Source: a virus. Taken from it: a stretch of 64,000 nucleotides of DNA. The notes under the pieces are model-generated. The model did no database searches, had not been told where the DNA came from, and saw only the letters and a list, made by a program, of their open reading frames with translations. How positions within the stretch are numbered: position 1 is the stretch's first letter; the number at the start of each line of letters is the position of its first letter. A program made the translations under genes and the position numbers. The DNA lies in the IMG/VR virus record IMGVR_UViG_3300021090_000013, positions 1-64,000 of that record. One strand, written 5' to 3'. Positions 42,126 to 56,356 of the stretch are shown one piece after another.

Positions 42126-44023
42126 GCACGCCCGCGCTCGCCGCCGACTGGTTGTCTGCCCTCGAACCGCCGCCCAACCTCAAGGTCAGCGAGTGGGCCG
42201 AAAAATACCGGATGCTTCCGGAAGCGAGTGCGGCCCGGGGCGGGAAGTGGGCGAACGAGACGGCGCCGTACCTCGTCGGGATCATGGATGCCGCGCGCGA
42301 GCCGGGGGTCCGCAAGATTGCCGTGATGAAGGGCGTCCAGACGGGCGGCTCGGAGGCACTGAACAACATCATCGGCTACCACATCCACCACGACCCTTGT
42401 CCGATGCTCGTCATCCACCCGGCCGTCGACGTCGCCGAGCAGTACTCGAAGGAACGGCTGTCCGACATGATCCGCTCCACCCCGGAGCTCGCCGCGGTCG
42501 TCCGTGACAAGGCGCAACCGAGGACGGTCGCCCAGCAATCAGAGAGCACCTTGACGATGAAGATGTTCCCAGGCGGCTTCATCATCCTGGGTGGGGCCAA
42601 TAGCCCGAACCCGTTCGCCCGCAGCTCCGTCCGCATCGGCCTTGGGGATGACGTCGATCGCTGGCCCGCAGTGGTCGGAGTCGAGGGAGACCCCGTCGAC
42701 CTTCTGAGCAACCGGGGCACGAGCTTCTATGACGCGGTGACGATCTACGTCTCCACGCCCACGCTCAAGGGCGGGCGGATTGACACGCTCTACTCCATGA
42801 GTGATCGCCGTCGCTACTTCGTACCCTGCCCGCACTGCGGACGATGGGATTGGATGACCTGGAATGCCCCCGACCACCTCAGGGTGAGCTACGAAGGCGA
42901 GGATGCGGACAGCGCTCGGCTTGAGTGCCCCAGCGCGGACCACGGCGGCTGTGGGGGCCAGATGCTCGAGCCGGAGCGCAGGGCGATGGTCGCCCGAGGC
43001 GAGTGGCGCGCTACGGCCCAGGCCCAGGAGCCGGGCCTCGCTGGGTTCCATCTTCCGGCCATGGTCTCGACCCTGGGGGACGTCACGCTCCCTGGCCTTG
43101 TCTCGAAGTGGTTGTCGGCCAGGTCGCGCGGCAAGGAAGCGCTGCGTGTCTTCATCAACACCAGCCTCGCGGAAGGGTGGGAGCATCGAGGGGCCACGCT
43201 CGATTCGCATACGTTGTTGAATCGGCGCGAACCGTACGGCGAGGGGGTCGAGGTCCCAGCGGCAGTGCCCTGCCTGACAGCGGGAGTCGACGTCCAGATC
43301 GATCGCTACGAACTCCAGGTCGTGGGCTGGGGCCTCTTCGGAGAGCGGTGGGTAGTCGACACTGGGGTAGTGCCCGGCAACCCGAAGGCCCCCGAGACCC
43401 AGGCCGGGCTTCTGGAGGCCCTGAGCCGTCGGTATCACCACGCCTCCGGCCACTGGCTGCCCATTCACGCCGTCTGCATCGACTCGGGCTGGCTGCCGGA
43501 GCACGTCTATGCCTTCGCCGCGCGTCATCGCCACCGGCACTTCTATGCGACGAAAGGGATCGGCGGCAAGCGCGGAGAGCCTATCTTGCTGAACGCCATC
43601 ACCAAGGTCCCGATCAACGTGAACGCCGACGGCGCCAAGGCAGACATCATGAGCAGCATCGGCTTGGTGGCGCCCGGGCCCGGCTACATGCACTTCCCTG
43701 AACGGGTCGACGAGGAATACTTCGCCCAGCTCTGCTCGGAGCATTCAGAGACGAGGAAGAACAAGGCGGGCGTCGTCACCGAGGAAATCTGGATCCAGGA
43801 CCGGACCAGGAACGAGGCTCTCGATACCGCCGTCCTGGCCCTCGCGGCCTTCCGGATTCTAGCCAAGGGGAAGGAAAACGATTTCCTGAGGAACATGCTG
43901 GCCATCCTGGCATCGACTCCGCCGGCCCCCGGTGGTGACGGTCAGGTACCACCGCCGCAGGCGGCCCCCCAGCCAGCAGGACAGCAACGGCGAGTCGGGA
44001 GGTCTTCCTACCTTGGGCGCTGA
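42122..44023 (+). CDS. Terminase large subunit, GpA-like (module B)
   Basis: 633 residues from GTG in GTGA overlap. Lambda GpA-family features: VSEWAEKYRMLPEAS near the front, an ATPase P-loop MKGVQTGGSEALNNIIG, VSTPTLKGGRIDTLY, a zinc-like CPHCGRWDWMTW block with later cysteines, and a C-terminal nuclease domain with AGVDVQIDRYELQVVGWG and an acidic N-E-A-L-D-T-A-V-L-A. It is a different terminase lineage from the one at 500-2263. The C-terminus is proline/glutamine-rich. Confidence 0.93.
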   Translation: MSTPALAADWLSALEPPPNLKVSEWAEKYRMLPEASAARGGKWANETAPYLVGIMDAAREPGVRKIAVMKGVQTGGSEALNNIIGYHIHHDPCPMLVIHPAVDVAEQYSKERLSDMIRSTPELAAVVRDKAQPRTVAQQSESTLTMKMFPGGFIILGGANSPNPFARSSVRIGLGDDVDRWPAVVGVEGDPVDLLSNRGTSFYDAVTIYVSTPTLKGGRIDTLYSMSDRRRYFVPCPHCGRWDWMTWNAPDHLRVSYEGEDADSARLECPSADHGGCGGQMLEPERRAMVARGEWRATAQAQEPGLAGFHLPAMVSTLGDVTLPGLVSKWLSARSRGKEALRVFINTSLAEGWEHRGATLDSHTLLNRREPYGEGVEVPAAVPCLTAGVDVQIDRYELQVVGWGLFGERWVVDTGVVPGNPKAPETQAGLLEALSRRYHHASGHWLPIHAVCIDSGWLPEHVYAFAARHRHRHFYATKGIGGKRGEPILLNAITKVPINVNADGAKADIMSSIGLVAPGPGYMHFPERVDEEYFAQLCSEHSETRKNKAGVVTEEIWIQDRTRNEALDTAVLALAAFRILAKGKENDFLRNMLAILASTPPAPGGDGQVPPPQAAPQPAGQQRRVGRSSYLGR

Positions 44024-44699
44024 GATCGCCCTCGTGACGGCGAACATGGGCGGCCTCGACCCGCTCTTCGCCCTGCCGCCACACCCGGGCGTCGACGCCT
44101 TCTACTACACCGACCGGCCAGATGCGGTGCCAAGCGGATGGACCGGGTCCTTTGTGGTGGGAGATGGAAACCCGCGACTGCTCGCCAAGCGCTTCAAGTG
44201 CCAGGCCCACCGGCTCGCCGAGGTTCAGGGCTGCCGCTGGCTGGCGTGGGCGGACGCCAGCTTCGAGTTCCGCTCGCTCGACTTCCTGCATGCGTGGGCC
44301 GCGCTCGCAGGCGACGAGGGCGCTTGCGCCGTGTTAGTCCCGCACCCGGACCGGGGGACGGTGGCGGAAGAGTACGCCTACGTGCTGCGGCAGATCGCGG
44401 GTGGGAATAAGTACCTGAGCAGCCGGTACTCAGCGGAGGTGCTCAGGTGCGAACGCGCGCACTTCAGCCGTACGCACGAGCTCGAGAAGCTCCGGCTGTG
44501 GGCCGGCGGGATGTGGCTCTTCGCCAACGTGCCGCGCACGCACGAGTTCCTCAACTCTTGGTGGGACTGCGTGCTGCGGTTCTCGATCCTCGACCAGACG
44601 TCTATGTCGCCTCTGCTGGCAGATCACGGGATCGAGCCGGTCGCCTTCAGCGGGAACCTCTACGACAACCAGCACTGGGTGAGGCACCCGCACCCATGA
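44013..44699 (+). CDS. DUF616-like glycosyltransferase-type protein
   Basis: 228 residues from TTG 44013 with GGAGG upstream, overlapping the terminase by 11 bases. The blocks LLAKRFKCQAHRLAEVQGCRWLAWADASFEF and later GGMWLFANVPRTHEFLNSWW match the DUF616 (TOD1-type) glycosyltransferase-like group; the W-A-D-A-S is the D-x-D-like position. First gene of the inserted glycosyl/methyl cassette. Its acceptor is unknown (capsid protein, DNA or host surface sugars). Confidence 0.7.
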   Translation: MGAEIALVTANMGGLDPLFALPPHPGVDAFYYTDRPDAVPSGWTGSFVVGDGNPRLLAKRFKCQAHRLAEVQGCRWLAWADASFEFRSLDFLHAWAALAGDEGACAVLVPHPDRGTVAEEYAYVLRQIAGGNKYLSSRYSAEVLRCERAHFSRTHELEKLRLWAGGMWLFANVPRTHEFLNSWWDCVLRFSILDQTSMSPLLADHGIEPVAFSGNLYDNQHWVRHPHP

Positions 44700-45238
44700 A
44701 CAAGCTTCTACTTTGTGCAGGTCCCACGCGCCCCGCAGGGTTCGTGCGACTGGACTCCAACCCCGCGCACGAGCCGGACATCCTCGCAGAGATCCCGCCG
44801 CTACCGGAGGAGGTGCGGGCCACCAGGTGGGACGTCGTCGAGCTGGTACATGGGATCGAACACTTCTGGCCATGGGATGCTGGGCCGCTCCTCCAGGAGA
44901 TTCACGAGGCGCTGCGCCCGGGAGGGGTGCTGGTGCTGGAGCAACCCAACGCCATCGTCGGAGCGCGAGCCCTGCTCGGATTCCAGGAGATGCCCGGTGC
45001 CCCTCGCGCGGACGGCCCCACCACCCTCACGGGAGTCGACAACTCCGAGGGCATGTGGTCCCTCTACGGAGATCCCAATCACCGCGACCCTGGCTATATG
45101 CACCGTTGGACATACAGCCCCGTGTCCCTCACGGCCTTGCTCCGCAGCGTCGCGCCCTGGTCCTCGATCGAGGCTCGCCCGCAGCAGTACCACACGTACG
45201 CCCGCGGCCGGGACTTCCGGCTGGAGGCCGTCCGGTGA
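44696..45238 (+). CDS. SAM-dependent methyltransferase-like protein
   Basis: 180 residues, ATGA overlap. The second half of a class I methyltransferase fold is visible: DVVELVHGIEHFWPWDAGPL, LQEIHEALRPGGVLVLEQPN and a later helix-strand end. The usual N-terminal glycine motif is short and unusual (LLLCAGPTRPAGFVRLDSNP), as in small methyltransferases tied to glycan synthesis. Probably modifies a sugar made by the neighbours. Confidence 0.7.
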   Translation: MNKLLLCAGPTRPAGFVRLDSNPAHEPDILAEIPPLPEEVRATRWDVVELVHGIEHFWPWDAGPLLQEIHEALRPGGVLVLEQPNAIVGARALLGFQEMPGAPRADGPTTLTGVDNSEGMWSLYGDPNHRDPGYMHRWTYSPVSLTALLRSVAPWSSIEARPQQYHTYARGRDFRLEAVR

Positions 45239-45888
45239 TCCTTACGGCTGTGCCTTACGCCGACGACATGAACCTCGGTCAAGCCTACAACGAGACCTTC
45301 GACCTCGTGGGGCCGGATGACTGGGTGGCGCTTCTCGATCACGATCTATTCTTCACGACCCCGGTGTGGCACCGGCAGCTCCGGGAGGCGGCTGCGGCCG
45401 AGCCGGAGGGGTGCTTCACCGCCATCACCAACCGCATGGCGAACCGGTGGCAGGTCGCACCGGAGGCGGCCGGGGCGGTCGTTCGTGCTGCGAACGGGTC
45501 CATTTCCAGGAGGGGCGAGGACAGCGTCGCCCACCACAGGAGGGTGGGTACGGAGCGGTTGAAGACGCGCACCCTGTTGGACGTGACGGAGACGCAGGGC
45601 TGGGGAGGCGTGCTGATGCTGATCAGCAAGCGGGCCTGGCTGGATGCTGGCGGCTTCGTCGACGGCCTCTTGTGCGTGGATCATGTTTTTCACTACGCGT
45701 TACGCGCTGCCGGCCGGAAGGTCTGGCTCATCGAAGGGCTCTATGTCTTCCACTGGCGTGGGACAAGCGGAGGGCCGCGCCCGCCGGGCCCAGAGATCCC
45801 GCGTGCTAGCGACCCACGGACCGGAAACGGCTGCCCCTGCCGGACGATCCCGCACGGCGATCCGAAGGTGCGGAGGCGGCTGCCGTGA
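45235..45888 (+). CDS. Glycosyltransferase family 2-like protein, copy 1
   Basis: 217 residues from GTG in GTGA overlap. GT-A features: a short first strand I-L-T-A-V-P-Y-A, GPDDWVALLDHDLFF (D-H-D metal site), FTAITNRMANRW, GWGGVLMLISKRAWLDAGGF and DGLLCVDHVFHYALRAAGRKVWLIEGLYVFHWR. Ends with G-C-P-C-R. The protein at 46724-47308 is a close paralogue with the same end motif. A homing endonuclease gene separates the two. Confidence 0.8.
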   Translation: MILTAVPYADDMNLGQAYNETFDLVGPDDWVALLDHDLFFTTPVWHRQLREAAAAEPEGCFTAITNRMANRWQVAPEAAGAVVRAANGSISRRGEDSVAHHRRVGTERLKTRTLLDVTETQGWGGVLMLISKRAWLDAGGFVDGLLCVDHVFHYALRAAGRKVWLIEGLYVFHWRGTSGGPRPPGPEIPRASDPRTGNGCPCRTIPHGDPKVRRRLP

Positions 45889-46727
45889 TCCTTTGCGCCG
45901 TCCCGTTTGCCGGAGAGGTCTACTTCCTGGCGGATCCGCGCGCTCCGAACGCGCCGCGGTATGTCGGTAAGACTTCTCGCGGCCTGACCCGGAGACTTTA
46001 CGGGCACCTTGCGAGCGCTCGTCATGGCGGAAGGGCCCATCGGGATCGTTGGGTTAGCTCGCTCCTGTTGGTCGGACTGTCTCCGGCGATCTGCCGTTTG
46101 TCGGTGGCATGGACCGAGGAGCAACTTAATACACAGGAGCGCGCTTGGATTGACGGATATCGCGCGGCCGGCGTCCTCCTTTGCAATCTCACCGACGGGG
46201 GAGATGGAACCCTTGGCCATTCTCCATCTCCTGAGGCACGGGCCAAGAAGTCCGCCGCGCTGATTGGGCGGAAACGTCCACCAGAAGTGTGCTCGAAAAT
46301 CGGAGATTCCAAGCGCGGCCGAGTCCTTTCGCCTGAGCACCGAGCCAAATTGAGCGTTGCCGGTCGCGGGCGGACGAGGACGTTTTCTCTGGGGCACCGA
46401 GCGAAGTTGAGCGCTCGCCAGACCGGCCGCAGCCTTTCCGCCGAGCATCGAGCGAACATCGGAGCGGGCCTTAGGCAGGCGTGGGCTCGGCCAGAAGTGA
46501 AAGCGAACCGTATCGCCGCACAACGCGCGACGGACCCAGAGGCGAGAAGGCGCAGCGCTTTGATTGCAGCAGCGGCATCTAACCAACCTGAGGCGCGCGC
46601 TCGCCGGGCCATGGCCATAAGGGTCGCGCTGGCCGACCCGGACGTGAGGCTGCGACGGAACGCCTTGACAAGTCTGGCCCTCAAGGCGGCGTGGGCCCGG
46701 CGAAAGGCCGCGGGTACTGCGTCGTGA
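45885..46727 (+). CDS. GIY-YIG homing endonuclease with NUMOD3 repeats
   Basis: 280 residues from GTG. GIY-YIG domain: VYFLADPRAPNAPRYVGKTS, then RLYGHLASARHGG and a conserved Glu in TEEQLNTQERAWI. Then at least four NUMOD3 DNA-binding repeats (SPEARAKKSAALIGRKRP, LSPEHRAKLSVAGRGR, LGHRAKLSARQTGRSL, SAEHRANIGAGL). The first nine residues (M-I-L-C-A-V-P-F-A) copy the start of the flanking glycosyltransferases. G+C is lower than in the neighbours. A mobile element that spreads by cutting gene copies lacking it. Confidence 0.88.
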   Translation: MILCAVPFAGEVYFLADPRAPNAPRYVGKTSRGLTRRLYGHLASARHGGRAHRDRWVSSLLLVGLSPAICRLSVAWTEEQLNTQERAWIDGYRAAGVLLCNLTDGGDGTLGHSPSPEARAKKSAALIGRKRPPEVCSKIGDSKRGRVLSPEHRAKLSVAGRGRTRTFSLGHRAKLSARQTGRSLSAEHRANIGAGLRQAWARPEVKANRIAAQRATDPEARRRSALIAAAASNQPEARARRAMAIRVALADPDVRLRRNALTSLALKAAWARRKAAGTAS

Positions 46728-47308
46728 TCTTTACGATGACGCCTTTCGCAATAGACATGAACTACGGGAGAGCCTGCAACGAGTTCATGGGGCTACTTCC
46801 AGACGATGGGTGGGGCTGCATAATCGATCACGACGCGATGTTCACGACGCGGGCCTGGTTCCGCCAGATCGAGGAAGCGATCGACTTCCGTCCCGACGCC
46901 GGCGCCTTCACGGCGGTGAGCAACCGGATCGCCCGCCGTTGGCAGCAGGCCGGGAACAAGGACAGCCACGACATTGTGCAGCACCGTCGCTTCGGTGCGG
47001 CCCGCCTCAAGACCCGCACGCTGCTCGACATCACCAACACGCACGGGTTCGGCGGCGTCGTGATCGTGATCAGCAAGAAGGCGTGGCGCCAGGTCGGGGG
47101 CTTCGTCGACGGGATGCTCTGCGTTGACCATCGGATGCACTTCGCGCTCCGCGAGGCCGGGCGCCGCGTTTGGCTGATCGAGGGTCTTTTCGTCTACCAC
47201 TGGCGGCGGGCCCAGGGCGACGGCCCGCCGGCGAATGCGCCACGCGCGGCCGGGTGCCCCTGTCGCGGTACCGAGAGCATGCCCACCGTGAGGGTGGCCC
47301 TTCCATGA
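46724..47308 (+). CDS. Glycosyltransferase family 2-like protein, copy 2
   Basis: 194 residues from GTG overlapping the homing endonuclease stop (GTGA). Aligns along its full length with the protein at 45235: TMTPFAIDMNYGRACNEF against the same region, D-H-D metal site (CIIDHDAMFTTRAWFRQ), FGGVVIVISKKAWRQVGGF, DGMLCVDHRMHFALREAGRRVW and the end motif G-C-P-C-R. A tandem duplicate carrying the homing gene at the junction. Confidence 0.78.
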   Translation: MIFTMTPFAIDMNYGRACNEFMGLLPDDGWGCIIDHDAMFTTRAWFRQIEEAIDFRPDAGAFTAVSNRIARRWQQAGNKDSHDIVQHRRFGAARLKTRTLLDITNTHGFGGVVIVISKKAWRQVGGFVDGMLCVDHRMHFALREAGRRVWLIEGLFVYHWRRAQGDGPPANAPRAAGCPCRGTESMPTVRVALP

Positions 47309-48045
47309 CGCGCCTCGTCTCCTGCTACTTTGGCGGCGAGGATTGGAACCGCATGGCCAGGGTGCTGGAGTTCGGCGCGCGCCGTCACTGCCCAGGATGG
47401 GACGTCGACGTTCGCAGGATCGACCCGCCTCGGCCGACCCACTCCCTGTCCGCGAACAAGGTCGGCAACACCCGCAAGCTCGACTGGTGGGCCGAGCAGG
47501 TGCAGGCGGCGTCGGACGGCGCGCAGCTCCTGCTCATCGACACCGACACCATGATCCTCGGCCCCCTCGATGCCGCCTGGGGCGAGAGCTTCGATCTTGC
47601 CTACACCTTCCGGGACGGCCAGGTGACCGGGCGGTTTCCTCTGAACGCGGGCGTCATCTTCCTGCGCGTATCGGATCGTGTGCGGGCCTTCATGGGCCGC
47701 TGGCGCGAGGAGAACCGGCTGATGCTGGCGGATCCTCGGCGGCACGCGCCTTGGTATAGGCGTTTCGGTGGAATGAACCAGTCGGCCCTGGGGAAGCTCC
47801 TCACCGAGGGCGCGGACAGGGCGCTTGGAGTCCAACTCGGACGCCTACCTTGTTCCAGGTGGAACGCCGAGAACACGACCTGGGAGCGATTCGACCCCGC
47901 GACGACGCGGATCGTCCACCTCAAGAACGGCTTGCGCCTGGCCGCGCTGGCGAAGGCTGCCAACGCCCCCAGGTTCAAGCCGCTGGTCCGACTCTGGCGC
48001 GGCCTGGAGCGGGAGGCGCTTGCCGCCCAGGGGTCCACCGCGTGA
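47305..48045 (+). CDS. Nucleotide-diphospho-sugar transferase-like protein
   Basis: 246 residues, ATGA overlap. The pattern resembles glycosyltransferases of the GT8/GT77-like group: ARVLEFGARRHCPGWDVDV, NTRKLDWWAEQVQA, QLLLIDTDTMILGPLDAAWG with D-T-D-T as the metal site, then FPLNAGVIFLRVS and TTRIVHLKNG at the end. Last enzyme of the cassette. Confidence 0.75.
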   Translation: MTRLVSCYFGGEDWNRMARVLEFGARRHCPGWDVDVRRIDPPRPTHSLSANKVGNTRKLDWWAEQVQAASDGAQLLLIDTDTMILGPLDAAWGESFDLAYTFRDGQVTGRFPLNAGVIFLRVSDRVRAFMGRWREENRLMLADPRRHAPWYRRFGGMNQSALGKLLTEGADRALGVQLGRLPCSRWNAENTTWERFDPATTRIVHLKNGLRLAALAKAANAPRFKPLVRLWRGLEREALAAQGSTA

Positions 48046-48308
48046 GCGCGAAGCTCTGGTTCACGGTCCACGAGGTCGCCCTGCTGCTACACATCGCCAG
48101 ACGGACAGTCCGCCGGCTGATCGAGCCGCATCGCGAGCGCTGCCACCTGGCACGCCAGGGACGCCATCCAAGACTCGTGCTGTGGGTTCCGTCTTCGGTT
48201 GTGGGGGAGCTGCGCCGGGAGCGGCGGGCCATGTGGCGGGGGCGGTTCGTCAGTCCCGCAGATCAACTCGCTCTACAGGAAACCCCTGTCAAGCCCTTTT
48301 CACCGTAG
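48042..48308 (+). CDS. Small helix-turn-helix protein
   Basis: 88 residues from GTG in GTGA overlap. Contains KLWFTVHEVALLLHIARRTV with R-R-L-I-E-P-H after it, an excisionase/MerR-type HTH, then a basic tail. It may regulate the cassette or be a relic of an insertion. Unusual directly ahead of the gpW-portal pair. Confidence 0.6.
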   Translation: MSAKLWFTVHEVALLLHIARRTVRRLIEPHRERCHLARQGRHPRLVLWVPSSVVGELRRERRAMWRGRFVSPADQLALQETPVKPFSP

Positions 48309-48380
48309 CCTCTCACCGTGGCCTCTCACCATGGCCACCACGGCAAGCCCACCAAAAACCGACCGTAACCTGTAGCTGCG

Positions 48381-48629
48381 ATGGCGTTGAGCCTGGAGCA
48401 GTTGCAGGCAGACCGAGACGCGATCAGTCGGACGATCGCCCGGGGCGAGCTGTCGGTCACCTTCTCCGACAGAACCACGATGTACAGGTCCGTTTCGGAT
48501 TTGAAGCTGGCGCGGGACATCATCGACGGAGACATCGCCCGCCTTGCCGGTCGCCCAAGGCAGACCGTCATCACCGGCCGCAAGGGCTTCACCCCGTTCG
48601 GCGGCGGAGCCGGGATCGGGAGCTTCTGA
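48381..48629 (+). CDS. Head-tail joining protein, gpW-like
   Basis: 82 residues. The pattern ELSVTFSDRTTMYRSVSDLKLARDIIDGDIARL matches lambda gpW: a short helix, a beta hairpin carrying the Y-R-S element, and a second helix. It ends in TGATG overlap with the portal gene. gpW plugs the portal after DNA is packaged. Confidence 0.85.
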   Translation: MALSLEQLQADRDAISRTIARGELSVTFSDRTTMYRSVSDLKLARDIIDGDIARLAGRPRQTVITGRKGFTPFGGGAGIGSF

Positions 48630-50203
48630 TGGGCGGCCAGCAGCTAGCGCTTCCGCTCGGCTCCCCGCGGGCAGCCCTCGCGCCGAAGATCCGAAACTCC
48701 ACCAACGCCGCCGTCTACGAGGCCGGGAGCTTCAACGCGCGCACGATGGGCTGGCGCGCGCCCACGGTCAGCCCGAACAGCGCGATCCTCTACAGCCTCG
48801 CGGCGCTGCGCGATCGTTCGCGACAGGCCGTCCGAAACAACGGCTTCGCCAAGGGGATCATCGACAAGCTCGTCACCAACATCGTTGGGACCGGCATCAA
48901 GCCCCTTTCGAAGGCCGCGGACGCCGATTTCCGGAAGGCCGTCCAGGCGCTCTGGCTACAGTGGACCGACTTCTCTGATGCGGACGGAGTCCTCGACTGG
49001 TACGGCCAGCAGGCGCAGGCGGTCCGGTGCTGGCTGGAGGCCGGCGAGGTCTTCGTTCGGTTGCGGCAGCGACTCCCCGAGGATGGCCTGCCCGTCCCAC
49101 TGCAGGTCCAGGTCCTCGAGCCAGAGATGTGCCCCTACACCTACAACGGCACGAGGGGCGCCAACAAGATTCGCGCGGGGATCGAGTTCGACCCGGTCGG
49201 GCGCCGCGCGGCCTACTACTTCTACGCCTCGCAGCCGGGCGCCCTGCTCGACTGGAATGTCACCGACCTCCGTCGGATTCCGGCCGAGTCTGTCATCCAC
49301 TTGTTCGACCCCTTGCGCGCCGGCCAGATCCGTGGGCTTCCCCACCTCACCCAGGCCCTGATCAAGCTCTACGAGCTGGACAAGTTCGACGACGCGGCGT
49401 TGCTGCGTCAGCAGATCGCCAATCTCTTCGCAGGATTTGTGAAGCGGCCCGCCGATGGAGGCTCCGATGTCCATCCGCTCACCGGCCTGGCCGCCGACGC
49501 CACCACAGCCGAAGGCCGTCCCGTGCTGAGCCTCGAGCCGGGGATCTTCCAGGAACTTTCGCCGGGCGAGGAGGTGGAGTTCTCGGACCCTCCCGATCCG
49601 CCCTCGACCTACCCGAGCTTCATGCGGCAGCAGCTCATGAGCATCTCGGCCGCGACGGGCGTCCCCTACGAGGTCCTGACCGGCGACATGGCGGGGCTGA
49701 ACGACCGGGTGATGAGGGTCGTCCTGCACGAGTTCCGCCGGATGATCATCTCCCGGCAGCACCACATCGTGGCCTTCCAGCTTTGCCGGACCGTCTGGGG
49801 CGCCTGGCTGGACCGCGTGGTCCTCAGCGGAGCGCTGCCGATTCCGGCCGCCGCCTACGCTGTGGACCCGCGGCCATGGTCCGCCGTCAAGTGGATGCCG
49901 CAGGGGTGGCCCTACATCCACCCGGTGCAGGACGTGACCGCGACCAAGGATGCGATTCGAGCCGGGTTCACGTCGCGCTCGGCCGCCGTCTCCGAGCAGG
50001 GCGAGGACTCCGAGGTCATCGACGCCGAGCAGGCCGCGGACAACGAGCGTGCCGACGAGCTTGGACTGATCTACGAATCAGATGGTCGGCAAGCGGCCAA
50101 GGCGCCGGCGAGCGGTCCTCCAGTGCCCATGGCCGAGCCAGACGATCCGGCCACGAACCCCGACGATCCGCCGGCGGACCCCGCCGCTGCAGCAGGAGCA
50201 TAA
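48629..50203 (+). CDS. Portal protein, lambda gpB-like (module B)
   Basis: 524 residues. Family landmarks: SILYSLAALRDRSRQAVRNNGFAKG, IVGTGIKPLSKAADADFRKAVQALW, VQVLEPEMCP, G-I-E-F-D-P-V-G-R-R-A-A-Y-Y-F, LRAGQIRGLPHL and MRQQLMSISAATGVPYEVLTGD. The C-terminus is a disordered, acidic, proline-rich tail. This is the second, unrelated-lineage portal of the window. Confidence 0.92.
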   Translation: MGGQQLALPLGSPRAALAPKIRNSTNAAVYEAGSFNARTMGWRAPTVSPNSAILYSLAALRDRSRQAVRNNGFAKGIIDKLVTNIVGTGIKPLSKAADADFRKAVQALWLQWTDFSDADGVLDWYGQQAQAVRCWLEAGEVFVRLRQRLPEDGLPVPLQVQVLEPEMCPYTYNGTRGANKIRAGIEFDPVGRRAAYYFYASQPGALLDWNVTDLRRIPAESVIHLFDPLRAGQIRGLPHLTQALIKLYELDKFDDAALLRQQIANLFAGFVKRPADGGSDVHPLTGLAADATTAEGRPVLSLEPGIFQELSPGEEVEFSDPPDPPSTYPSFMRQQLMSISAATGVPYEVLTGDMAGLNDRVMRVVLHEFRRMIISRQHHIVAFQLCRTVWGAWLDRVVLSGALPIPAAAYAVDPRPWSAVKWMPQGWPYIHPVQDVTATKDAIRAGFTSRSAAVSEQGEDSEVIDAEQAADNERADELGLIYESDGRQAAKAPASGPPVPMAEPDDPATNPDDPPADPAAAAGA

Positions 50204-50207
50204 CGAC

Positions 50208-51548
50208 ATGCGCGAATGGTTCAAGGTGAAGCTCCAAGCGGATCCGGCGGTCGCCGAGATCCACATCATCGACTACATCGGTGGCTGGATCGACCAGACG
50301 CTGAACGAGATGTTCGGCGAGACCGTGACGGTCACGGCCAAGGCATTCGTACAGGCGCTCGCCGAGATCCCCGAAGCGGTCAAGACGCTGCGGGTGCATG
50401 TGAACTCGCCCGGTGGCGACCTCTTCGGAGCGGTCAACATCGCGAACGCCTTGCGGGCCTGGGCCACGAAGGGCCGCAAGGTCGAGACGATCGTGGATGG
50501 GATGGCCGCGAGCGCCGCCTCCCTGGTGGTGATGGCTGGCGACCCCGTGCGGATCTCCGACAACGGCCTCCTGATGATCCACAACCCTTGGACGGTGGCC
50601 ATGGGCAACGCCGCCGAGATGCGCCAGGCGGCCGACGAACTGGACAAGTTCCGCTCCGGCAACATCATCCCGACCTACCAGTGGCACACGGAACTCAGCG
50701 CCGAAGAGATCGCGGCGTTGATGGACGCGACCACGTGGATGGACGCCAAAGAGGCGGTCGCGATGGGGTTCGCGGATGAGGTGGTCCAGGGGCTGCGGGC
50801 CGCGGCGAGCATCGACCCGCGGACCCTGGCCAAGCTCACGATCCCAGAAAAGTACGCCGACCGCGTGAAGGCCTTGCTCGCCCCGAAGGCCGAACCCACA
50901 GCAGCGGAGGCGAAAGGAGAGCCCATGAAGGTAGCGGCCGCGATGTGTTGCACGTGTTGCGAAGGTGGCCAGTGTTGCTCTTGCTGCCGCGGTGGCGGCG
51001 GCACGGGGTGCGCCTGCGAGGACACCGGCGCCGACTGCGCTTGCTGCAAGTCTGGCGAGTGCTGCGCCTGCTGCAAGGGTGACCAGTGCTGCCCCGACTG
51101 CATGTCCTCCGCGATGGCCGCGGCCTCCGCCCGGGCCGCCATCATTCCGGCCGCCGATGCCGAGATCGTGAAGGCCTGCGGAGAGGCGGGGCTTGATCTC
51201 GCCTTCGCCCAGGTCCTCATCGGCGAGCACGTCGCGTCCGACGCGCTGCCCGAGCGGATCGCCTCGGAGAAGCAGGCGCGGGCAACCGCCAAGGCGCGCG
51301 AGACCGAGATCCGCGCCCTCTGCGCGAAGGCGAAGCAGCCCGACCTGGCCGACGGCTACGTCGCCGGCGGCATGAAGATCGAGCAGGTGCGCCAGCAGCT
51401 CACCCTCATCACGGCCAAGCTCGACAAGGTCGAGATCGATGGCGGGCTCGAACCGGACCACGGCTCCCGCCGCAACCAGATCATCGACATCGCGGCGGTC
51501 TACGCCGAACGTAACAGGCTGGGCGATCCGGCCAAACGGAAGGAGTAA
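50208..51548 (+). CDS. Head protease (ClpP-type) fused to scaffold
   Basis: 446 residues with AGGAG before ATG. Residues 1-230 are a ClpP-fold protease: LRVHVNSPGGDLFGAVNIAN, DGMAASAASLVVMAGD with the nucleophile Ser, LLMIHNPWTVAMG with the His, and the Asp region near LMDATTWMDAKEAVAMGFAD. Residues 240-446 form the scaffold, whose start is also an internal start codon. Between them lies a very cysteine-rich stretch. Corresponds to lambda gpC/Nu3. Confidence 0.88.
   Translation: MREWFKVKLQADPAVAEIHIIDYIGGWIDQTLNEMFGETVTVTAKAFVQALAEIPEAVKTLRVHVNSPGGDLFGAVNIANALRAWATKGRKVETIVDGMAASAASLVVMAGDPVRISDNGLLMIHNPWTVAMGNAAEMRQAADELDKFRSGNIIPTYQWHTELSAEEIAALMDATTWMDAKEAVAMGFADEVVQGLRAAASIDPRTLAKLTIPEKYADRVKALLAPKAEPTAAEAKGEPMKVAAAMCCTCCEGGQCCSCCRGGGGTGCACEDTGADCACCKSGECCACCKGDQCCPDCMSSAMAAASARAAIIPAADAEIVKACGEAGLDLAFAQVLIGEHVASDALPERIASEKQARATAKARETEIRALCAKAKQPDLADGYVAGGMKIEQVRQQLTLITAKLDKVEIDGGLEPDHGSRRNQIIDIAAVYAERNRLGDPAKRKE
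50925..51548 (+). CDS. Nested scaffold protein (Nu3-like) with cysteine-rich N-terminus
   Basis: 207 residues, in frame with the protease. ATG 50925 has AAAGGAG 5 bases upstream, better than many starts in the window, so a separate scaffold is very likely. Residues 8-63 hold about 20 cysteines in C-C-x-C-C and C-A-C-C groups with G, K, E and D between. The remainder is helical, scaffold-like (KARETEIRALCAKAKQPDLA). The cysteine block is unusual in a scaffold and could bind several metal ions or form disulfides. Confidence 0.7.
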   Translation: MKVAAAMCCTCCEGGQCCSCCRGGGGTGCACEDTGADCACCKSGECCACCKGDQCCPDCMSSAMAAASARAAIIPAADAEIVKACGEAGLDLAFAQVLIGEHVASDALPERIASEKQARATAKARETEIRALCAKAKQPDLADGYVAGGMKIEQVRQQLTLITAKLDKVEIDGGLEPDHGSRRNQIIDIAAVYAERNRLGDPAKRKE

Positions 51549-51553
51549 GGCAC

Positions 51554-51940
51554 ATGACGGCATTGAACGAAGGGCAGTACACCGGCGAGTTCCTCATCGA
51601 GGAGCCCGCCCCGAGGATCAGCCGGGAGACCGTCACCGTGACGGTCGATACGGCCACCAAGCTGGAGCCGGGCCACGTCATGGCCCAGCTCTCGGCGGAC
51701 AGCAAGTTCGTCGAGTACGACAACTCCGGCACCGACGGCTCCGAGGAGGCAGCGGGGATCCTCTACAACGAGTGCGACAACTCGGCCGGCGAGGCCCCGG
51801 CAGACTTTACAGCGGTCGTCGTGGTCCGTCTCGCGGCCGTCCGCAAGGCCGACCTGCAGTGGAACAGCGGGGTCGACGCGAGCGGCAAGACGGCGGCGTA
51901 CGCCGATCTCAAGGCCCTGATGATCTTGGCGCTCGACTAA
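51554..51940 (+). CDS. Head decoration protein, lambda gpD-like
   Basis: 128 residues; gene directly after the scaffold. Recognised by the family blocks QYTGEFLIEEPAPRISRETVTV, LEPGHVMAQLSADSKFVEYD, EAAGILYNECDNS and VVVRLAAVRKADLQW. Trimers stabilise the expanded head by binding the gpE-type capsid lattice. Confidence 0.88.
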   Translation: MTALNEGQYTGEFLIEEPAPRISRETVTVTVDTATKLEPGHVMAQLSADSKFVEYDNSGTDGSEEAAGILYNECDNSAGEAPADFTAVVVVRLAAVRKADLQWNSGVDASGKTAAYADLKALMILALD

Positions 51941-51976: not shown

Positions 51977-52975
51977 ATGCCGAACTTGGACGTCTTCCGG
52001 AGCGACGCTTTCAGCCTCGTCTCCCTCACCGCCGCCGTCCTGAAGGCGCCCTACAAGCCCGGCCGGATCGGGGCCTCGGGCCTCTTCCGCGAGCGCGGAA
52101 TCGCGACCACGACCGTCGTCGTGGAGGAGAAGGACGGACGGCTCTCCCTGATTCAGACCTCTCCGCGCGGCGGTCCGCCCACCACGATCGGTCAACAGAA
52201 GCGGACCGCGCGGCCCTTCATCGTGCCCCATCTCGAGCGCATGTCCACGGTGCTCGCCGACGAAGTCCAGAACGTGCGGGCCTTCGGTTCGGAGAACGCC
52301 GAGCAGGCGGTGCAGGAAATCGTGAACGAGAGGCTCGCCGATCTGCGGTCGATGCACGAGGTGACGCTCGAACACATGAGGATCGGAGCCATCAAGGGCG
52401 TGGTCATCGACGCGGACGGTTCGACGCTCTTCGATCTGTTCAGCGAGTTCGGGGTCGAGCAGCAGACGGCCACGCTCGACGTCGGCGACACCGCGGACAT
52501 CAGGAATCAGGCGGTCGCGATCCAGCGCCAGATCGAGTATGCGCTCGGCGCCGAGCCGCTCTCGAGCTTCCGCGCCTACTGCGGAGACGACTTTTTCGAC
52601 GCACTGGTTGGCGCCACCAGCGTCAAGGCCGCCCTCCAGTACCAGGAGTCCGCGCTGTTGCGTGGGAACCTGCGCCAGGGGTTCGAATTCGGCGGCATCA
52701 CCTGGGAAAACTACCGCGGCCGGATGCTCTCCACCTCGACTCCGTTCTTCCCCGACGACGAGGCGTACGTCGTGCCCGAAGGGACGAGCCTCTTCAACAC
52801 CTACTTCGCCCCGGCCGACTTCGTCGAGACGGTCAACACGCTCGGCCTGCCCATCTACGCGAAGCAGGCGCCGGACCCGGAATTCAACCGCTGGGTCAAG
52901 ATCCTGACCCAGAGCAACCCGCTGGCGCTGTGCCTGCGGCCGCGTGCGGTCGTCAAGGTCACCCTCGGGACGTAG
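51977..52975 (+). CDS. Major capsid protein, lambda gpE-like (module B)
   Basis: 332 residues with AAGGAGAAGGAG upstream. Typical gpE-family features: DAFSLVSLTAAVLKAPYKPGRI, RPFIVPHLERMSTVLADEVQNVRAFG, EHMRIGAIKGVVIDADGS and a late FNTYFAPADFVETVNTLGLPIYAK. Same HK97 fold in principle but not recognisably related to the capsid protein at 5845 by sequence. Confidence 0.93.
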   Translation: MPNLDVFRSDAFSLVSLTAAVLKAPYKPGRIGASGLFRERGIATTTVVVEEKDGRLSLIQTSPRGGPPTTIGQQKRTARPFIVPHLERMSTVLADEVQNVRAFGSENAEQAVQEIVNERLADLRSMHEVTLEHMRIGAIKGVVIDADGSTLFDLFSEFGVEQQTATLDVGDTADIRNQAVAIQRQIEYALGAEPLSSFRAYCGDDFFDALVGATSVKAALQYQESALLRGNLRQGFEFGGITWENYRGRMLSTSTPFFPDDEAYVVPEGTSLFNTYFAPADFVETVNTLGLPIYAKQAPDPEFNRWVKILTQSNPLALCLRPRAVVKVTLGT

Positions 52976-55476: not shown

Positions 55477-55748
55477 CGCGCCTGGTGCGCTTCTACGGGG
55501 GAAATCCGATGACCTGGCTGGCCGAGACACCGACGTGCGTGGTCAACGCGCACCTTGCGATGCTCGGCCGGCTCACGGCCGAGGACCGACTTGCCGCCGC
55601 CATGGCCTCCGGCGCGGGAAGGTTCATGAAGCCGGCGCCCATCCGCAGCCAGATCGCAGCATGGAACAGGGCCGCGCAACGCGGCGACGGCAGCAAGGGC
55701 GGCTCTGGCGTCCCCCGGGGCACGGGCATCAAGGTCGTGAAGCGGTGA
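55404..55748 (+). CDS. Tail chaperone T-like extension in -1 frame (module B)
   Basis: The -1 frame stays open from within the short chaperone to 55748 and encodes DWGEQIARLVRFYGGNPMTW then VVNAHLAMLGRLTAEDRLAA, a T-like helical domain. No canonical X-XXY-YYZ heptamer is in register; a run of six Gs (55400-55405) is the only obvious slip candidate. An internal ATG (55509, after GGGGGAAA) could start the T domain separately. The exact junction is not fixed. Confidence 0.6.
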   Translation, partial: GDSGARGGKRRAGRRRDVDWGEQIARLVRFYGGNPMTWLAETPTCVVNAHLAMLGRLTAEDRLAAAMASGAGRFMKPAPIRSQIAAWNRAAQRGDGSKGGSGVPRGTGIKVVKR

Positions 55749-56356
55749 AGGTCTGCAAGAAACGCGGCCATCAATATTCCGCAGAGCGCAGGCAGTGTCC
55801 TGTTTGCCGGCTACTTTCTCGGCGCACCTCAGAAGCCGGTAGGCGCGAGCAGATCCGCGTCCAGAAACGGACATGGGATGCCAATCGTGAGAAAAGGAAA
55901 GCCTCTGCTCGCAGGAATTACCTCTCCCATCGCGAGGCTTGGGCGGAAAGGACTCGCAACCGGAGATCGGCCAACCTGGAAGCTTATCTGGCAAATTGCC
56001 GCTCCTATCAACAAGCCCATCGAGAACGCCACAACGAGCACGTGGCCAAATACCAGAAGGCCCATCCTGAAAAGCACGCCGAGCGCGAGGCGCGACGGCG
56101 CGCCCGAAAGCGCGCCTCGTTGATCGAACCATTCTCGTGGGTCGAGTGGTGCGCAGTGGTTGACTTCTACGGTGGGCTTTGTGCCTACTGCGCCCAACGT
56201 CCGTGGGAGCACAAAGAGCACGTCGTGCCGCTAGCTCGTGGCGGTGCGCATGCCCTCTGGAACCTCGTCCCATCATGCAAGCGTTGCAACTACCGAAAAC
56301 ACACTAAGACCTGGGCGCCGCTCAAGCGCCATCCAGCGATGGCGGAGGCTGCGTAA
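55745..56356 (+). CDS. HNH homing endonuclease
   Basis: 203 residues from GTG overlapping the chaperone stop. N-terminal zinc knuckle (CKKRGHQYSAERRQCPVC), a long basic middle with arginine/histidine helices, and an HNH nuclease: GLCAYCAQRPW, HVVPLARGGAHALWNLVPSC, KRCNYRKHTKTW. The G+C content is lower than around it. A free-standing mobile endonuclease inserted between chaperone and tape measure. Confidence 0.88.
   Translation: MKVCKKRGHQYSAERRQCPVCRLLSRRTSEAGRREQIRVQKRTWDANREKRKASARRNYLSHREAWAERTRNRRSANLEAYLANCRSYQQAHRERHNEHVAKYQKAHPEKHAEREARRRARKRASLIEPFSWVEWCAVVDFYGGLCAYCAQRPWEHKEHVVPLARGGAHALWNLVPSCKRCNYRKHTKTWAPLKRHPAMAEAA

Follow-up and report, generated by a model that had tools for sequence, protein, structure and literature searches.

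The head-maturation protease/scaffold protein of a tailed phage known from a single metagenomic contig carries 20 cysteines within 52 residues between its two domains, which raises the questions of what such a block does in a capsid-assembly protein and how it came to lie there. The window analysed here is a stretch of 64,000 nucleotides (64 kb), part of a virus record of 73,294 bases. The feature is real and unusual, and it is a singleton: unlike all 144 distinct relatives compared, it marks a variant of the ClpP-type protease/scaffold proteins, and it is not classed as a metallothionein.

The protease/scaffold gene and its domains

The block is encoded within a single ORF of 446 aa (50208..51548, plus strand, as are its parts and the portal, gpD-like and gpE-like neighbours described below), whose product matches Pfam PF00574 (E 3e-28, 99 bits against a cut-off of 20.2), NCBIfam NF045542 (173.2 bits, exceeding the curated cut-off of 120) and the PHROG 94 head maturation protease (E 5e-67). 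The protease domain (residues 1-224, 50208..50879) shares 62-73% identity with the relatives L004 and L310, and S102 (MAAS) and H125 (MIHN) of the putative serine protease are invariant in the 21 sequences aligned. The N-terminal half of the linker that follows (residues 225-246, APKAEPTAAEAKGEPMKVAAAM, 50880..50945) aligns with the Pro/Ala/Glu linkers of the relatives, and the C-terminal half (residues 299-315, 51102..51152) was likewise placed by alignment with them. The helical domain at residues 316-446 (51153..51545), 69.6% identical to that of L310 and common to the relatives, is taken to be the scaffold on the basis of the alignments and the structural model; its C-terminal part matches PHROG 3348 (E 1e-5). 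In the AlphaFold model, the protease domain scores pLDDT mostly above 90 with ClpP as its best PDB matches, and the scaffold helices at residues ~311-400 reach pLDDT 89-97. Residues 237-286 between these two confident domains fall below pLDDT 50 and are predicted to be disordered, a score that any orphan repeat would receive likewise. The block thus lies between a protease part and a scaffold part, just as the initial annotation of this DNA had proposed.

The gene adjoins those of a lambda-family portal protein (48629..50203, PF05136, E 2e-109), a lambda gpD-like head decoration protein (51554..51940, PF02924, E 2e-25) and a lambda gpE-like major capsid protein (51977..52975, PF03864, E 2e-99), in the order portal-protease/scaffold-gpD-gpE. 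The protease, the scaffold and this gene order are those of the NF045542/PHROG 94 proteases with a C-terminal scaffold. The initial annotation set the block against lambda-type scaffolds; the portal, gpD and gpE neighbours are lambda-type, but the protease is ClpP-type (PF00574, NF045542), whereas the lambda gpC protease is of the S49 type. The protein shares with lambda gpC/Nu3 the fusion of protease and scaffold in one frame, and a candidate internal start for a free scaffold is also present: the Shine-Dalgarno sequence AAAGGAG (50913..50919) lies 5 nt upstream of an ATG (50925..50927) that would open a scaffold product of 207 aa. The site is a strong one, and among 150 internal ATGs of reference genes only 2 are preceded by anything comparable. 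This candidate nested start is missing in the relatives, since none of 20 close relatives has an ATG with a Shine-Dalgarno sequence in the linker, where a few weak GTG/TTG candidates were seen, so that a free 207-residue scaffold is plausible in this phage and is no trait of the family. Internal initiation at ATG 50925 is accordingly regarded as plausible from the sequence, and the 207-residue scaffold assumed at the outset survives as a possible product of a gene that is one 446-aa ORF.

The cysteine block and its reading frame

The block spans residues 247-298 (CCTCCEGGQCCSCCRGGGGTGCACEDTGADCACCKSGECCACCKGDQCCPDC, 50946..51101), just inside the interval 50925-51120 for which about 20 cysteines in 56 residues had been claimed; the exact count is 20 in 52 (38%), accompanied by 10 Gly, 4 Ala, 4 Asp, 3 Glu and 3 Thr, with no His, Phe, Trp, Tyr, Ile, Leu, Val, Asn or Met. 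Cysteine averages 0.75% in the other genes of the phage, and with stretches overlapping the block set aside, nowhere else in the six frames of the window do at least 9 cysteines occur per 52 residues. The motifs CC, CxC, CxCC and CCxCC recur with a period of 9 residues, and the block resolves into six 9-residue units of roughly the form [C/D/G]-C-x-C-C-[K/E/R]-x-G-x: CCTCCEGGQ (50946..50972), CCSCCRGGG (50973..50999), GCACEDTGA with a 2-residue GT spacer ahead of it (51006..51032), DCACCKSGE (51033..51059), CCACCKGDQ (51060..51086, in the 27-nt tandem repeat) and the degenerate CCPDCMSSA (51087..51113). Thirteen Cys-Cys pairs stand at a spacing of 9, a number never attained when the block residues were shuffled 20,000 times, indicating that the periodicity reflects more than composition. 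Differences between the units number 65, 53 and 59 at the first, second and third codon positions, and as they are not concentrated on third positions, the repeats show no sign of purifying selection.

Because GC-rich DNA with TGC repeats can mimic cysteine richness in an unused frame, the reading frame was assessed by synonymous codon choice relative to the phage's own genes, which is independent of amino-acid content. The cysteine frame is the coding frame: its synonymous codon z is about -0.3 with a third-position GC of 0.81, whereas frame +1, open and Ala-rich, gives z = -8.8 and a third-position GC of 0.47, and frame +2 is interrupted by a stop. A frameshift error, named in the initial annotation as one finding that would undo the feature, is thus unlikely, as codon choice fits the cysteine frame and rejects the alanine frame. 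In codon usage the block also falls at the 33rd percentile of 1,277 windows taken from the genes of the phage, an ordinary position that does not make it look foreign.

Relatives of the gene and homologues of the block

In the closest relative found, L310/L319 (identity 73% for the protease, 70% for the scaffold and 74% for the capsid protein), RPEDEPKDGPKPAPAPTPTPAVA stands in place of the block and its flanks. The initial annotation had staked its reading on close relatives not lacking the block without consequence, and here is one, at 73% protease identity, that has none; the block is therefore dispensable for the scaffolds of the family, but may still be of importance to this one phage. 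The remark that known scaffolds have no such block agrees with the comparison, in which no relative has one and none of the 144 exceeds 3 cysteines per 52 residues; their linkers are of the Pro/Ala/Glu kind or hold unrelated inserts where this phage has the cysteine block. Judged by sequence comparison, a Cys-rich joint is seen in this phage alone among the relatives compared.

The joint itself was compared in the 44 relatives in which both domains could be placed. It measures 8-32 residues, mostly Pro/Ala/Glu, in 40 of them, and L327 and L357 have longer joints of the same kind. Unrelated inserts occupy the joint in L330 (4169-5545), with 119 residues, and in L316 (3822-5300), with 156 residues counted, part of them scaffold; neither insert matched a described family convincingly, that of L316 giving a weak match to PHROG 32639. 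The two inserts, each about 100 residues, are unlike each other. Their presence indicates that the protease-scaffold joint accepts insertions, and since both flanks of the cysteine block are homologous to the relatives, the block is an in-frame internal insertion that left the gene intact. The earlier suggestion of a recently inserted gene fragment holds in this respect but finds no support as to a recent or foreign origin, given the 33rd-percentile codon usage and the divergence of the repeats at every codon position. As an insertion-site duplication, a direct repeat of 11 nt (CGTGAAGGCCT, 50864 and 51167) was considered, but its copies lie some way off to each side of the block and are unconvincing.

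No match to the block was found in Pfam and NCBIfam up to E 10, metallothionein families included, or in PHROGs up to E 1, and the PDB held no meaningful relative. The tblastn searches found no phage gene homologous to it, and both negatives are weak because low-complexity masking may conceal homologues. Scans with DNA patterns are unaffected by such masking. When viral contigs were scanned with a loose CCxCC-x4-CCxCC pattern, the matches listed were predominantly low-complexity or non-coding frames, so the pattern was tightened; applied to viral contigs and to GTDB genomes, the tighter patterns returned scattered Cys-rich frames, none of them in a capsid gene, and a stricter two-unit pattern gave zero matches in viral contigs. 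Some pattern matches are probably real bacterial Cys-rich proteins, namely those in L283 and L286 and the Streptomyces C-terminal tails in L230, L252 and L279. The Planctomycete ORFs are free-standing Cys-repeat proteins with CCxCC-K-x-D-x-CC or CCEPECC motifs (L283:1819 and L286:3096 regions), possibly cell-envelope or metal-binding proteins. The Planctomycetaceae ORF in L283 (...CKCCDCCKKDACCC...) has the CCxCC-K-x-D-x-CC motif in common with the block; the likeness of these free-standing bacterial proteins is one of motif only, with no phage head-gene context, and to judge from the sequences it is probably convergent.

Vertebrate metallothioneins contain 20 cysteines, a CCxCC motif in the alpha domain and no aromatic or His residues, and bacterial metallothioneins of the SmtA type contain His and adopt a zinc-finger-like fold. 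The metallothionein-like density noted at the outset is borne out by the 20 cysteines in 52 residues: the block resembles metallothioneins in its 38% Cys and its CC, CxC and CCxCC motifs, and it resembles the vertebrate type in having no aromatic or His residues, unlike the SmtA type. It differs from them in its 9-residue period and in matching no family model. Moreover, metallothioneins, both vertebrate and SmtA/BmtA/PmtA, are small free proteins, whereas the block lies inside a protein of 446 aa (or 207 aa). No paper on a metallothionein joined with a phage scaffold was found in literature of partial coverage.

Function and origin of the block, and other genes of the window

The favoured reading, for which the chances seem about even, takes the block for a metallothionein-like module that binds metal and acts as a spacer or contact in the protease-scaffold joint. 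From composition only, the block probably binds metal ions, as its cysteine density without His or aromatic residues points to soft-metal binding in metallothionein fashion when reduced. Six Cys repeats would have been inserted in frame into the flexible linker from the ClpP-type protease to the helical scaffold, and their 20 thiols would bind soft metals (Zn2+, Cu+ or Cd2+) in the reducing cytoplasm; the linker, otherwise disordered, would thereby fold up as one or two compact metal-thiolate clusters. The disorder modelled at residues 237-286 agrees with the expectation for a metal-free segment of this kind. The lambda initiator consists of protease C, scaffold Nu3 and the portal, and Nu3 may be degraded by the protease ahead of packaging (PMC3224144). 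On the lambda model, the block would enter the prohead with the scaffold in many copies and would be degraded or expelled once the protease removes the scaffold. The effect most to be expected is a local one: the block would serve between protease and scaffold as a spacer stabilised by metal or as an oligomer contact, and the internal ATG may additionally supply a free scaffold with the block at its start.

The benefit of the block to the phage is unproven. That a working metallothionein-like domain was acquired, with the metal-loaded scaffold controlling prohead assembly or scaffold release, or taking up metal in the infected cell, is offered tentatively. If metal is bound, capsid assembly would be tied to the cell's metal or redox state, a link that is not known from any other tailed-phage scaffold, and nature would have supplied a design for protein cages that carry metal and empty themselves. 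As an insertion site for unrelated modules, the protease-scaffold joint of ClpP-type head proteases is worth inspecting in other phages.

Neutral expansion of the linker, in which slippage of a 27-nt unit, in a linker that tolerates changes of length, amplified a short Cys-coding stretch whose metal binding, if any, is incidental and brings the phage no benefit, is judged unlikely. It would account for a tandem repeat of 27-nt period that occurs in no relative, for between-unit changes spread evenly over codon positions, and for a setting in which the relatives' linkers vary widely in length and content. However, the remaining Pro/Ala/Glu-type linkers are almost Cys-free, and a cluster of 20 thiols should be reactive and come at a cost; the block nevertheless stays in frame and its 20 cysteines are kept in repeats that have diverged, the divergence of the six units itself suggesting some age.

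The capture of a small Cys-rich, metallothionein-like gene, which would have landed in the linker, lost its stop and come to be read through, perhaps still starting by itself, is improbable. This reading concerns origin and can be compatible with the metal-binding module. It draws on the insert opening with its own Shine-Dalgarno sequence and ATG (MKVAAAMCC...), which the relatives do not have, but with the patterns used no free-standing homologue emerged from viral, phage or GTDB genomes, codon usage gives no support to a foreign origin, and the target-site duplication is unconvincing.

More improbable is a disulfide or redox clamp, in which the cysteines would cross-link scaffold subunits directly or serve as a redox sensor gating scaffold release. 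Vicinal cysteine pairs at regular spacing would suit it, as would the self-association of such scaffold proteins, lambda Nu3 being known to dimerise (PMC3224144). Disulfides are nevertheless unlikely because proheads assemble in the reducing cytoplasm; the scaffold also has to disassemble again, and no relative has an equivalent. Adjacent CC pairs, moreover, are poor disulfide partners. An artefact, whether compensating frameshifts that made an Ala/Pro linker Cys-rich or a chimeric contig, is scarcely credible, for although frame +1 is open and Ala-rich and the relatives' linkers are rich in Ala/Pro, codon choice contradicts it (z -0.3 against -8.8), the joint would still far exceed most linkers in length, and the same relatives match both flanks.

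The tRNA and Rfam scans gave no match. With phyla sampled from a Polyangia genome, a Planctomycete, an Acidobacterium and a Rubrivivax, prophage relatives of the capsid protein attain only 44%, 40%, 52% and 52% identity, respectively, values that single out no host. Several non-structural genes lie between the terminase large subunit and the portal (44000-48400), an unusual site for such a cluster. They include a methyltransferase-like gene (44696-45238), an ORF with a NUMOD3 motif whose N-terminus resembles a GIY-YIG homing endonuclease (45885-46727), and two apparent paralogues (~45235-45888 and 46691-47308) with common motifs such as LDHDLFFTT / IDHDAMFTT, which look glycosyltransferase-like by eye and are without a Pfam match. 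In the tail gene region, an HNH endonuclease (PF14279/PF01844) is encoded at 55535-56356, ahead of the likely tape-measure gene.
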